A DNA stretch of 64,000 nt from Lutibacter sp. (GTDB lineage: Bacteria > Bacteroidota > Bacteroidia > Flavobacteriales > Flavobacteriaceae), in the NCBI GenBank assembly GCA_030694935.1, contig JAUYUA010000038.1, forward strand, positions 1 through 64,000, in the 5' to 3' direction. Under the pieces are notes generated by a model that did no database searches, had not been told where the DNA came from, and saw only the letters and a program-made list of their open reading frames with translations. How positions within the stretch are numbered: position 1 is the stretch's first letter; each line of letters starts with the position of its first letter. Positions 801 through 62,463 of this stretch are shown piece after piece. Both the position numbers and the translations under genes were made by a program.

Positions 801-2654
801 TTATACCAATAATTTAAATTGTTGAACTAGTTCGTCGTTAGAGAATGGCAATCCTTGAATTTTGTTGTGTTGAGAAAATTCAAATTTAGGGAATCTGGTT
901 TTTAAAATAGAAACAAACTGACCGGCATTCAATTCACAAACAATTATTTTTTTGTATTTAGATAAAATTTCTTCTGTATTTTTTGGCATTGGATTGATAT
1001 AATTAAAATGTGCAAATCCAATATTTTTGTAGCCTTCATCGCTAATTTGTTTAACGGCAGAATGCAAAGAACCATAAGTTCCGCCCCATCCAATCACCAA
1101 TAAATCACCCGATTCAGCAAATTCTGTTTTTAATTCAGGAATGTTATTTTCAACCAGTCTGACTTTTTCGGCTCTGATATGCGTCATTTTCTCGTGGTTT
1201 ACTGGTTCATAACTAATGTTGCCTGTAACAAAATCTTTTTCCAATCCGCCTATTCTGTGTTCCATTCCCGGTGTTCCCGGAACTGGCCAATTACGCGCCA
1301 AAGTTTTTTCATCTCGGTCATACGGACTCCAATTTTCTTTGATTTCTGTAACCTTGTGGTTTTTAATTTCTGGCATATCAGCAACAGATCTAATTTTCCA
1401 AGGTGCAGAACCGTTGGCAATATATCCGTCTGTCAATAATATAACCGGAGTCATATGTTCCAAAGCAAGTCGGGCCGCTTCATAAGCAAAATTAAAGCAG
1501 TTAGCAGGCGTGCTTGCGGCAATCACAATAACCGGACTTTCACCGTTTCTTCCGTACATCGCTTGCAATAAATCTGATTGCTCTGTTTTTGTCGGCAATC
1601 CTGTTGAAGGCCCACCACGTTGTACATTAATAATAACCAAAGGCAATTCAGTCATCATCGCCAAGCCAATAGCTTCGCCTTTTAAGGCCAATCCTGGACC
1701 TGAAGTTGTGGTAATTGCTAAATCACCGGCAAATGCGGCTCCAATGGCTGAAGTAACTCCAGCTATTTCGTCTTCTGCCTGAAAAGCTTTTACGCCAAAA
1801 TGTTTGTGTTTAACAAGCTCGTGTAAAATATCGGTAGCTGGCGTAATAGGGTATGAGCCTAAAAACAGTTCTAAACCAGATTTTTCTGCGGCTGCCAATA
1901 ATCCCCAAGCTGTAGCTGTATTTCCGCCGATAATTCTATAGGTTCCCGGTACCATTTTAGCAGGGGAAATTGTATAGGCATTTGGAATCAATTCCAAAGT
2001 TTCGGCAAAATAATAACCGGCATTCAGTACTTTGGTATTTGCTTCAATTAAATGCGGTTTTCCTTTAAATTTTTTATTGAAAAAATCAACAGAATGTTCT
2101 AATGAACGATCGTACATCCAATAAACCATTCCCAAAGAAAACATATTTTTGCTTCGGGTAATGGATTTGTTGTCCAATCCTTCCACGTCTTTTAAGGCTT
2201 CTTTGGTCATTGAAGTCATATCAACCTGAATAACGCGGTAGTTTTCCAAGCTTCCGTCTTCTAACGGATTGTTTTTATACTCTGCCTTGTCTAAATTTTT
2301 CTTTGTAAAGGAATCCGTGTCCACAATAATGGTATGACCCGGCTTTACGGCATATAAATTGGTTTTTAAAGCAGCGGGGTTCATTGCAACCAATAAATCC
2401 ACATTGTCTCCAGGGGTACTTATTTCTACGCTTCCAATATGAACCTGAAATCCTGAAACACCATATAAACTTCCTTGTGGAGCTCTAATTTCGGAAGGAT
2501 AATTTGGAAAAGTTGCAATATCATTCCCAAACATTGCCGAGGTATCAGTAAACTGGGTTCCTGTTAACTGCATTCCGTCTCCTGAATCCCCAACAAACCT
2601 GACAACTACTGCTTCCAGTACCTCAGGTTGAAGAATTGTTTTAGTTGTAATCAT
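801..2654 (-). CDS. korA: 2-oxoacid:ferredoxin oxidoreductase, fused gamma/alpha subunit
   Basis: 617 aa, the pyrimidine-domain subunit partnering KorB. Residues about 15-200 form the gamma-type domain, with VGDSGDGMQLTG near residues 21-32. Residues about 245-617 form the alpha (pyrimidine-binding plus domain II) part, with GSYPITPATDILHEL and TTTSGPGLALKGEA. The gamma-alpha fusion is the usual form of 2-oxoacid:acceptor oxidoreductases in Bacteroidota. It is the first gene of the pair, with korB downstream. A -7 box on the minus strand at 2722-2729 (TACCTTTG) gives a leader of roughly 60 bases. The divergent ferredoxin gene is a plausible electron acceptor. The family is clear; 2-oxoglutarate as substrate is the likeliest reading. 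Confidence 0.93.
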   Translation of the reverse strand: MITTKTILQPEVLEAVVVRFVGDSGDGMQLTGTQFTDTSAMFGNDIATFPNYPSEIRAPQGSLYGVSGFQVHIGSVEISTPGDNVDLLVAMNPAALKTNLYAVKPGHTIIVDTDSFTKKNLDKAEYKNNPLEDGSLENYRVIQVDMTSMTKEALKDVEGLDNKSITRSKNMFSLGMVYWMYDRSLEHSVDFFNKKFKGKPHLIEANTKVLNAGYYFAETLELIPNAYTISPAKMVPGTYRIIGGNTATAWGLLAAAEKSGLELFLGSYPITPATDILHELVKHKHFGVKAFQAEDEIAGVTSAIGAAFAGDLAITTTSGPGLALKGEAIGLAMMTELPLVIINVQRGGPSTGLPTKTEQSDLLQAMYGRNGESPVIVIAASTPANCFNFAYEAARLALEHMTPVILLTDGYIANGSAPWKIRSVADMPEIKNHKVTEIKENWSPYDRDEKTLARNWPVPGTPGMEHRIGGLEKDFVTGNISYEPVNHEKMTHIRAEKVRLVENNIPELKTEFAESGDLLVIGWGGTYGSLHSAVKQISDEGYKNIGFAHFNYINPMPKNTEEILSKYKKIIVCELNAGQFVSILKTRFPKFEFSQHNKIQGLPFSNDELVQQFKLLV

Positions 2655-2721
2655 AATTAATGTAAATTAAAAAAATTTGTTTAAATTTATTGAAAATTAT
2701 TGTAAGTTCAACATAAAGCGC

Positions 2722-2729
2722 CAAAGGTA
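2722..2729 (-). promoter_or_regulatory. -7 promoter box for korAB
   Basis: On the minus strand the bases read TACCTTTG, an exact match to the Bacteroidota TAnnTTTG -7 consensus, about 70 bases before the korA ATG. A clear -33 element was not identified. Confidence 0.55.
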
Positions 2730-2787
2730 TATTTACTTTTTTAAAGAGTAAATGACTTTTATCACATAGACTTGCAATAATTTTATA

Positions 2788-2795
2788 TAATTTTG
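2788..2795 (+). promoter_or_regulatory. -7 promoter box for the ferredoxin gene
   Basis: TAATTTTG matches TAnnTTTG and lies 31 bases before the ferredoxin ATG. Together with the box at 2722-2729 it makes a compact divergent promoter region. Confidence 0.5.
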
Positions 2796-2825
2796 TTGAA
2801 TATTTAATAATAAAAATTAGTAATC

Positions 2826-3176
2826 ATGGCGATTAGAATAACAGACGAATGCATTAATTGTGATGCATGTATTTCAGAATGTCCAAATAATGCGATATAC
2901 GAACCAGATGGAGATTGGTCGTACTCAGATGGAACTGCTTTAAAAGGTACGATAACTTTGCCTAATGGCAAACAAGTTGACGCCGATAAAAGAAATGAAC
3001 CAATATCTGATGAATTTTATTTTATTGTAACTGATAAGTGTACAGAGTGTAAAGGTTTTCATGACGAACCACAGTGTGCCTCAGTTTGTCCGGTTGATTG
3101 TTGTATTCTTGATGAAGAACATGTGGAAACTGAAGACCAATTAGTTGGTAAAAAAGAGTGGATGCACGGAGAATAA
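2826..3176 (+). CDS. 2x[4Fe-4S] ferredoxin with extended second cluster loop
   Basis: 116 aa soluble electron carrier. The first cluster ligands are C9, C12, C15 and C19 (CINCDACISECP). The second set starts C72-x2-C75, then an eight-residue loop (KGFHDEPQ) before C84 and C88-P, as in Allochromatium-type ferredoxins. Further cysteines at 92 and 93 complete the first cluster. A 40-residue insert between the two halves (about 30-68) is longer than in clostridial ferredoxins and is common in the Bacteroidota form. It is divergent from korAB, so it probably accepts electrons from that enzyme. A terminator follows at 3191-3223. Confidence 0.92.
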   Translation: MAIRITDECINCDACISECPNNAIYEPDGDWSYSDGTALKGTITLPNGKQVDADKRNEPISDEFYFIVTDKCTECKGFHDEPQCASVCPVDCCILDEEHVETEDQLVGKKEWMHGE

Positions 3177-3190
3177 TTTCTTCAAAATTC

Positions 3191-3223
3191 ATAAAAAAGC
3201 ACCGTTTTCACGGTGCTTTTTTA
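3191..3223 (+). terminator. Rho-independent terminator after ferredoxin
   Basis: The arms AAAGCACCG and CGGTGCTTT flank a TTTT loop, and a T run follows. It ends the ferredoxin transcript. Confidence 0.85.
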
Positions 3224-3270
3224 GTTTAGGAATGTTGCATACTTACAGAAGCTTGAGTTAACGAAAGCAT

Positions 3271-5142: not shown

Positions 5143-5267
5143 ACGAAATAAGGGTTTGAAAATACAGCGGTTTTAAATGTTTACCATTCAAGCAAGTCGG
5201 CAATAAATAAATTTTAGTTTTTTGGGATTTCCCGCATTTTTGGTAGACCTGCCGTCGATTTTGGTGG

Positions 5268-5289
5268 GCCTGCCTGCCGGCAGGCAGGC
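5268..5289. repeat. 22-bp perfect GC-rich palindrome (GCCTGCCTGCC/GGCAGGCAGGC)
   Basis: Two 11-base arms, GCCTGCCTGCC and GGCAGGCAGGC, meet with no loop. A second palindrome, CCCGCCAGCTGGCGGG, lies at 5294-5309. The same core recurs at 12916-12937, 16997-17013 and 43137-43158, always between genes, and is far more GC-rich than its surroundings. It looks like a dispersed palindromic element rather than a regulatory site for one gene. Confidence 0.8.
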
Positions 5290-5293
5290 GTTC

Positions 5294-5380
5294 CCCGCCA
5301 GCTGGCGGGTCCAGGCTTTTCGCTGCAATCTTTTTATCGGCGAAAAACCTCTAAAAAGTATTTTCGCTGCAATCCTTAAC
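5294..5380 (-). repeat. Structured RNA-like repeat, copy A
   Basis: Read on the minus strand it runs GGATTGCAGCGAAAATAC, TTTTTAGAGG, TTTTTCGCCGATAAAAAG, ATTGCAGCGAAAAGCC, then the GGCGGG palindrome. Two near-identical ATTGCAGCGAAAA boxes flank a U-rich/A-rich stem. Copies B (8316-8412, plus strand) and C (12963-13056, minus strand) keep the boxes and the stem while the sequence around them drifts, which suggests a conserved fold. From memory it resembles the Flavo-1 RNA motif of Bacteroidota; a covariance search would settle this. Confidence 0.55.
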
Positions 5381-5392
5381 CAAATTGATTTA

Positions 5393-5420
5393 CGCCCTTC
5401 GGCTCCGCTCAGGGTGACGG
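5393..5420. repeat. Dispersed 28-bp repeat (CGCCCTTCGGCTCCGC...), intergenic copy
   Basis: The copy reads CGCCCTTCGGCTCCGC then TCAGGGTGACGG. It matches 62078-62105 at 26 of 28 positions. That second copy lies inside the polysaccharide deacetylase gene, read in frame as VTLSAVEG. It is a short mobile-like repeat. Confidence 0.75.
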
Positions 5421-61791: not shown

Positions 61792-62463
61792 CTATTCAAT
61801 TGATTTAAATGAAAAGCCTTTCGCCGAATAATATTCCAACACTTTTGACAATACAAATTTAAGTTTTTCAGAAGCTTTATCGCTGTCATGAAAAACTACA
61901 ATGCTTCCGTTTTGGATATTTCTGATGACGTTTTCCAAACACTTTTCATTGGAAATGTTAGGGTCAAAGTCGGCACTTAAAACATCCCACATAATTATTT
62001 TATAACCCAATTTCCTGATTTTTTTAGATTGGGAAAGGGTGAGTCTTCCGTAGGGAGGCCTAAATAATTTTTGATTTCGCCCTTCGACTGCGCTCAGGGT
62101 GACGGCTTTTAGTGTTGCGTATTCTTCAAAATATTTTTCGGCATCTTCTATGTTTTGAAGGTAAGCTTCAGTTTTTGTTTTCCAGCCGTTTAGATGGTTG
62201 TTGGTGTGATTGCCAACAGCATGTTTTTCTTCAATAACTTTTTTGAAAATTTCCGGGTGTTCCCCAATATTTTTTCCGATACAAAAAAAAGTGGCTTTTG
62301 CTTTGTGTTTTTTAAGTTCGTTTAAAGCCCACTCCGTAATTTCAGGAGTCGGACCGTCATCAAAAGTGAGGTAAAGCACTTTTTCTTTTGAGGATAAACG
62401 CCAAATCCATTTGCTGAAAATGAATTTTAAAAGGCTCGGTGTTTTTATAAAATAAAATTTCAT
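61792..62463 (-). CDS. Polysaccharide deacetylase (NodB family) with a repeat-derived insert
   Basis: 223 aa NodB-fold carbohydrate esterase. The motifs are TFDDGP (Asp35/Asp36), the H86-x3-H90 pair in GNHTNNH, RPPYGR and MWDVLSADF. It removes N-acetyl groups from a polysaccharide such as peptidoglycan or chitin oligomers. Residues 120-128 (AVTLSAVEG) come from the 28-bp dispersed repeat (62078-62105). They sit just before the RPPYGR motif in a loop, so the fold may be unaffected. The N-terminal segment is hydrophobic and may anchor the protein. Confidence 0.9.
   Translation of the reverse strand: MKFYFIKTPSLLKFIFSKWIWRLSSKEKVLYLTFDDGPTPEITEWALNELKKHKAKATFFCIGKNIGEHPEIFKKVIEEKHAVGNHTNNHLNGWKTKTEAYLQNIEDAEKYFEEYATLKAVTLSAVEGRNQKLFRPPYGRLTLSQSKKIRKLGYKIIMWDVLSADFDPNISNEKCLENVIRNIQNGSIVVFHDSDKASEKLKFVLSKVLEYYSAKGFSFKSIE
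62078..62105. repeat. Dispersed 28-bp repeat inside the polysaccharide deacetylase gene
   Basis: The copy reads CGCCCTTCGACTGCGC then TCAGGGTGACGG, matching the intergenic copy at 5393-5420 at 26 of 28 positions. It is in frame on the minus strand and encodes about nine residues. Confidence 0.75.

Follow-up and report, generated by a model that had tools for sequence, protein, structure and literature searches.

A dispersed 24-nt REP-like unit and its apparent in-frame insertion in a polysaccharide deacetylase gene of Lutibacter sp.

The best-known palindromic inserts that keep the reading frame are those of Rickettsia. The Rickettsia RPEs are palindromic and lie in frame in conserved protein genes, and the available part of the source reports that a decorated Gmk was translated and active (PMC2229807). 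CGTC REPs, which occur in Bacteroidetes too and are without a dedicated transposase, have been described along with REPs inside genes (PMC3733652, in the portion available). A Bacteroidetes-rich subclass of the RAYT/TnpA-REP systems has REP insertions in tnpA-REP genes (PMC6006769), and REPs have been counted in Flavobacterium genomes (PMC12306157), both according to the accessible parts of these reports. In-frame insertion of the REP type is already known from the RPEs and from intragenic REPs; the family described here differs in the build of the unit, its nesting and the stepwise states seen at single sites. No published description of this 24-nt family was recognised in the literature on REPs in Bacteroidetes or inside genes, and no paper was found with literal unit strings (five 18-mers and six 15-mers) or with VTLSAVEG, figures and supplements lying outside the scope of both searches. 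In an Rfam scan of 36 loci the unit itself matched no family; the hits were to the Flavo-1 RNA next to it and to RNAs of no relation.

The deacetylase gene and its 24-nt insert

The window, that is, the whole stretch of 64,000 nucleotides that was analysed, contains two matches to the repeat against 0.01 expected by chance. One lies in a polysaccharide deacetylase gene and the other is intergenic:

61792..62463, minus strand: polysaccharide deacetylase gene carrying the unit; 223 aa, stop included; PF01522
62080..62103, minus strand: unit inside the deacetylase gene; 24 nt, coding for V121-G128 = VTLSAVEG
62103-62100, 62099-62096, 62095-62084 and 62083-62080, minus strand: parts of that unit, namely tag GTCA, left arm CCCT, core GAGCGCAGTCGA and right arm AGGG
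5395..5418, minus strand: second unit, intergenic; GTCA, CCCT/AGGG, core GAGCGGAGCCGA
5305..5385, minus strand: Flavo-1 RNA adjoining the second unit; Rfam RF01705, 51.4 bits, cut-off 42

A preliminary description of this DNA had read the host as a polysaccharide deacetylase, and the Pfam match bears this out (PF01522, E 8.1e-29). The TFDDG, HxxxH and RPPYG motifs are present together with PF01522, as in NodB/CE4 deacetylases, and we take them to have the roles that they have in that family. The gene copy encodes (A)VTLSAVEG, as had been described, on the minus strand, with six residues between VTLSAVEG and RPPYGR. The same description placed one 28-bp sequence at both 62078-62105 and 5393-5420. 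The repeat is indeed present at both positions, but the two 28-mers agree at 26 of 28 positions (two mismatches), so 'same sequence' is slightly overstated; nor did an insert length of 28 bp hold, the clean difference between occupied and empty orthologues being 24 nt.

The deacetylase was found in 48 of the 60 genomes searched (genomes carry G numbers, loci L numbers), and 30 loci, all from the same genus, were aligned, with the same-genus matches in G025 and G027 left out. VTLSAVEG is present in four of the 30 (G000, G009, G026 and G034, the last at G034:C69, 3405-4070), and one more, from G014, has a variant unit at the same site, with TTTA before the stem and the peptide FTLSLVEG. The 25 others are without the peptide: six of these display a gap of exactly 24 nt (G005, G029, G002, G023, G028 and G031), and the rest have loops of other lengths, which in G004, G001 and G036 are long and unrelated in sequence. 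The cleanest occupied/empty pair is G014 and G005, in which the four codons before and the five after the insert are identical; no flanking duplication was seen at the insert in this comparison. The orthologue in the named locus L174 (JACUUQ010000042.1, Lutibacter sp. Kmv35) is 83% identical.

In a tree of 35 genomes built from five proteins, the four VTLSAVEG carriers fall in one clade with a support of 1.0. This clade also contains G005, G029 and G004, which are without the insert, and G021, in which the deacetylase was not found; G014 lies outside it. The insert may have been gained once and later lost or replaced, or it may have been gained more than once.

The comparison indicates that the 24-nt unit put eight amino acids into the deacetylase and left the gene unbroken. 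Since 24 is divisible by three and four of the six frames of the unit are open, eight codons are added and the gene need not break. The motifs are conserved, the gene is under purifying selection, and the enzyme may be functional. Gene-wide dN/dS values are similar in five pairs that have the insert (0.173, 0.107, 0.126, 0.084 and 0.111) and in three pairs that do not (0.139, 0.135 and 0.162). Predicted structures of two sequences were too poor for placement of the loop (mean pLDDT 46).

Build, copies and nesting of the unit

The unit consists of a tag of 4 nt, an arm of 4 nt, a core of 12 nt and a second arm of 4 nt. The core, GAGCNNAGYCGA, is nearly fixed, and the letters of the 4-bp stem vary with pairing kept. 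There are 125 exact matches to the core in the genome of origin (3.22 Mb, 107 contigs), as opposed to one for the control, and a 21-nt pattern occurs at 66 places with up to three mismatches, as opposed to none for the reversed control. For the 117 cores analysed with their flanks, the number of Watson–Crick pairs, counted outward from the core, is 108, 108, 104 and 106, and then 30, 43 and 40. Over the first four pairs 426 of 468 cells are Watson–Crick, compared with 252±9 (maximum 283) when the right arms were reshuffled. When each of the 33 arm pairs is counted only once, the figures are 105 of 132 and 54±5 (maximum 74), and 14 of the 33 pairs are fully complementary. The other 37 cores in 80 listed named loci give 27 arm pairs and 78 of 108 cells, compared with 39±5 (maximum 58).

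G is the first loop letter in 108 of the 117 cores, from which a C-GNA-G turn is predicted. GNA and GNNA loops are reported, in the part of the source available, to form unusually stable DNA mini-hairpins (PMC4686876); the unit shares the C-GNA-G turn in 108/117 cores, but the published examples are short synthetic hairpins, whereas the turn of the unit is a prediction from sequence. ViennaRNA gave no extra hairpin stability for five units (z 0.76, 0.63, -0.94, 0.13 and 1.03), and its rules may miss a GNA turn. Because the hairpin energies are unsupportive, covariation is used as the evidence for the stem instead. The tag before the stem is GTCA in 31 of 117 cores, and TTTA, NGGT, CTTG and CCTG also occur; after the stem, CAA (18/117) and CGT (12/117) are commonest, with CCA outside the twelve commonest.

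The unit is short, palindromic, alike from copy to copy, present in many copies and mostly extragenic, and so is a REP in the wide sense; 57 of the 66 places lie outside Pfam-supported ORFs, in a scan that did not take in three other ORFs of 119 codons or more. Like the GTAG and CGTC REPs, as the accessible text of PMC3733652 presents them, it is a short dispersed palindrome with a 5′ tag, mostly intergenic and in some cases in frame in conserved genes (17 of 117 unit cores, in 13 Pfam-supported proteins). It departs from the CGTC REPs of that text in having a covarying stem of 4 bp, not 8–9 bp, a core of 12 nt between the arms in place of a loop of 4–5 nt (the core may hold non-standard pairs), and CAA or CGT as the commonest letters where the CGTC REPs have a 3-nt tail that is mostly CCA. 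Several tags occur in the unit, GTCA among them; the CGTC REPs have an unpaired CGTC-like tag at one end. With the RPEs, as far as PMC2229807 is available, it has in common the in-frame palindromic insertion in conserved protein genes; however, RPEs measure 105–146 bp and are Rickettsia-specific, whereas the 24-nt unit occurs in Bacteroidota and other phyla. In the RAYT/TnpA-REP systems (PMC6006769), Y1 HUH enzymes handle small hairpins that have a tetranucleotide on the 5′ side of their foot. The unit is likewise a small hairpin with a 5′ tetranucleotide, but unlike the RAYT-linked GTAG REPs of that report it is without a GT[AG]G tag, and none was found near the Y1 genes of its own genome.

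An exact 21-nt match was found in 27 of 296 Bacteroidota genomes, the genome of origin included. The exact 24-mer occurs in at least 120 stretches of named records, of which 80 named loci were analysed; among the listed matches are records labelled Chloroflexi, Clostridia, Eremiobacterota and Cloacimonadales, which are possibly wrongly binned contigs. At L343, about 2425–3250 (G000:C10:147924-148750), ten cores in both orientations are clustered between ORFs, with the stems CTTC, CCTC and TGTC and many cores 57 bp apart. In the closed genome G011, all 12 copies found are within 40 kb on one strand (C1:1385660-1424144).

Several units adjoin Flavo-1 RNAs, further hits being in L005, L012, L014, L029 and L086 (two). 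Units with a TTTA tag in L007, L030, L068 and L088 have flanks that by eye resemble Flavo-1 halves (GTTAGGGATTG on one side) and look as if placed within a Flavo-1 element; Rfam made no call on these flanks. At about 5263–5310 of the window, next to the intergenic unit, there is a second repeat type, made up of GC-rich palindromes (around GCCTGCCGGCAGGC and CCGCCAGCTGGCGG).

Nesting of units in each other's loops is a feature of this family, unlike the published GTAG and CGTC REPs (PMC3733652, in the portion available). Fourteen of the 117 cores are flanked by the two halves of an outer unit, in whose loop they sit, and seven more have one such half. The extra length is 24 nt at one loop position in 14 of 14, in a search that permitted about 21 to 31 nt, and 11 of the 14 show full complementarity between the outer arms. 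Six of the 14 resemble copies of one composite, so that about nine forms are counted. A NuoF-like gene displays three states: it is empty in G009, contains one complete unit (CTTC/GAAG) in G004 and contains nested units in G000, where it is 24 nt longer than in G004 and the second unit lies inside the first in the opposite orientation. The exact inner break in G000 is ambiguous because the junction has further base differences, and the single state of G004 possibly arose by loss instead of a gain in G000.

Units inside other proteins

Twelve of the 66 places fall in ORFs of at least 119 codons, nine of them in eight Pfam-supported ORFs (with three ORFs left out of the scan): the deacetylase, the NuoF-like protein (two places), two Type ISP proteins, a PabB/TrpE-like protein, MetRS, PurL and HsdM. 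Counted by cores, ORFs of 110 aa or more contain 28 of the 117, and 17 of these are in frame in 13 Pfam-supported proteins. This count adds DNA topoisomerase (two), a 2-oxoacid dehydrogenase E2, diphosphomevalonate decarboxylase, HMG-CoA reductase and pseudouridine synthase, the unit being near the protein end in the last two. The other 11 comprise one ORF core without a Pfam match, two without a proper stem (C7:11898 and C74:52058, which are probably due to chance) and eight outside the Pfam scan. The preliminary description had VTLSAVEG-like strings recurring in unrelated Bacteroidota proteins, and VTLSAVEG is indeed found in unrelated Pfam-supported proteins.

The 80 listed named loci contain 88 exact 24-mer copies, 20 of them in ORFs of at least 100 aa. 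Twelve of the 20 are read as VTLSAVEG, two as PFDCAQGD, five as xPSTALRV and one as HPERSRR; the bias to the first frame has a p of 9e-4 relative to equal use of the four open frames, the loci not all being independent. Pfam support was obtained for 14 of the 18 scanned ORFs, one a UvrB; the remaining two are the deacetylase orthologue of L174 and the ORF of L133, which lies outside the scan. In L171 and L183 the unit may lie upstream of the true start. In the genome of origin more frames are used, and units inside genes occur in both orientations. In L195 (Croceitalea dokdonensis), close to where the sequence of that locus ends, a unit (DPSTALRV) lies in an ORF with a UvrB interaction domain; REPs in uvrB of R. 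conorii are reported in the available part of PMC3733652.

Units also recur in the same loops. In the PabB-like gene (30 aligned) G000 has a unit and its sister G004 is shorter by 24 nt; other units (FILSEAEG and VILSGIEG) are present about ten residues further on in G029 and G011, and a Flavobacterium PabB-like enzyme has VTLSAVEGQ in the same linker. For PurL (30 aligned), 19 sequences have a short loop, three have PFDSAQG at the loop and eight have other longer loops, some of them unit-like. LSG(A/V)EG lies in one MetRS linker in 4 of 30, VTLSAVEG is at an identical column in two flavobacterial E1 dehydrogenases, and one site in LeuRS is occupied by VTLSAVEG in one sequence and by VTSSTVEK in another. 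These cases were drawn from genes already known as unit carriers; tolerant loops explain the recurrence, and a target preference may also play a part.

In the MetRS linker of the genome of origin (L276), decayed units are surrounded by repeated DQSDSQMSTAN blocks, which most relatives lack. In the Winogradskyella LeuRS (L182), KMLRQAQHDK and EMLKQVQHDK adjoin units and seem to be encoded by a different palindromic repeat (GATGCT...CAGCATGAC) within this gene.

Spread of the units and its meaning

Relatives have the unit present or absent at one site with a clean 24-nt difference, and further copies lie both within and between numerous genes. The best reading of the deacetylase insert is that a dispersed repeat was inserted in frame, as the preliminary description proposed, and neither result named as speaking against it was seen: the peptide is missing from 25 of 30 aligned same-genus orthologues, and the genome holds tens more copies (66 close places, 125 cores). 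The units probably form a dispersed family of 24-nt REP-like hairpins, a copy of which was inserted in the deacetylase, and would be moved in trans by an HUH (Y1) transposase. The unit would fold as a single-stranded DNA hairpin and be moved by a RAYT-like enzyme of this class; harmful insertions would be purged by selection, leaving as genic copies those in tolerant loops. The deacetylase site would be such a loop, of variable length, ahead of the RPPYG motif, and a benefit from the peptide would be unnecessary for the explanation.

Mobility by HUH (Y1) in trans is what we infer from genome comparisons in which co-occurrence is no proof of mechanism. Among 38 same-genus genomes, a Y1 hit is present in 12 of 12 with at least five copies and in 8 of the 26 others (Fisher p 5e-5; Spearman 0.72). 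By independent contrasts in 35 genomes, copy number correlates with Y1 number (r 0.50, p 0.002). Under a bit-score split chosen after the hits were seen, Y1 below 60 bits alone gives r 0.50 (p 0.002) and Y1 of at least 60 bits r 0.19 (p 0.27); the rve control gives r -0.08 (p 0.65). Four of the 20 Y1-bearing genomes have no copy, and five of the 18 genomes without Y1 have 1–3 copies. There are six Y1 (PF01797) hits in the genome of origin, and the surroundings of each, out to 1.5 kb or as far as the contig reaches, contain no core.

A wider proposal is more tentative: the 24-nt units, with their GNA-turn core and a 4-bp stem free to vary, might make up a widespread REP superfamily in its own right. 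They would move in trans as single-stranded DNA and take single-stranded hairpin loops, their own included, as targets; being codon-neutral in length, they would go on supplying housekeeping proteins, in Bacteroidota and in other phyla, with insertions of eight residues.

The same insertion could have come about with no dedicated transposase, if units spread through template switching, through hairpin-primed synthesis or by being copied from one another during repair. The six Y1 genes without a nearby unit would suit this, nesting at one loop position could stem from hairpin replication, and the CGTC REPs are likewise without a transposase in what is available of PMC3733652; it is nevertheless rather unlikely, as copies co-occur with Y1 and not with rve and have an identical 24-nt length at separate sites. 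It is improbable that genic and intergenic units are retained for a control function in RNA or DNA, as an mRNA hairpin, a terminator or a protein site. Core conservation, stem covariation and the Flavo-1 RNA beside the second unit of the window and several others are in its favour, but most deacetylase orthologues are without the unit, and genic units occur in either orientation and in several frames. That the peptide is adaptive and tunes the deacetylase has a very slim chance of being right: it lies six residues ahead of RPPYG and is identical in four genomes, yet loop length varies freely in relatives, the same peptide occurs in unrelated proteins and dN/dS is not raised. Convergence, or an old enzyme part lost elsewhere, is scarcely credible, for although loops of similar length and other sequence occupy the site in G004, G001 and G036, every letter of the 24 nt is matched in a dispersed repeat, copies in other bacteria included, and none of the 25 other aligned orthologues has the peptide.

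The unit accounts for the recurrence of peptides such as VTLSAVEG and PFDCAQGD in unrelated proteins, which could mislead homology searches. Related genomes show housekeeping genes before and after insertion, one site being seen empty, with one unit and with two nested units, and target choice, tolerance and the enzyme responsible thereby become testable.
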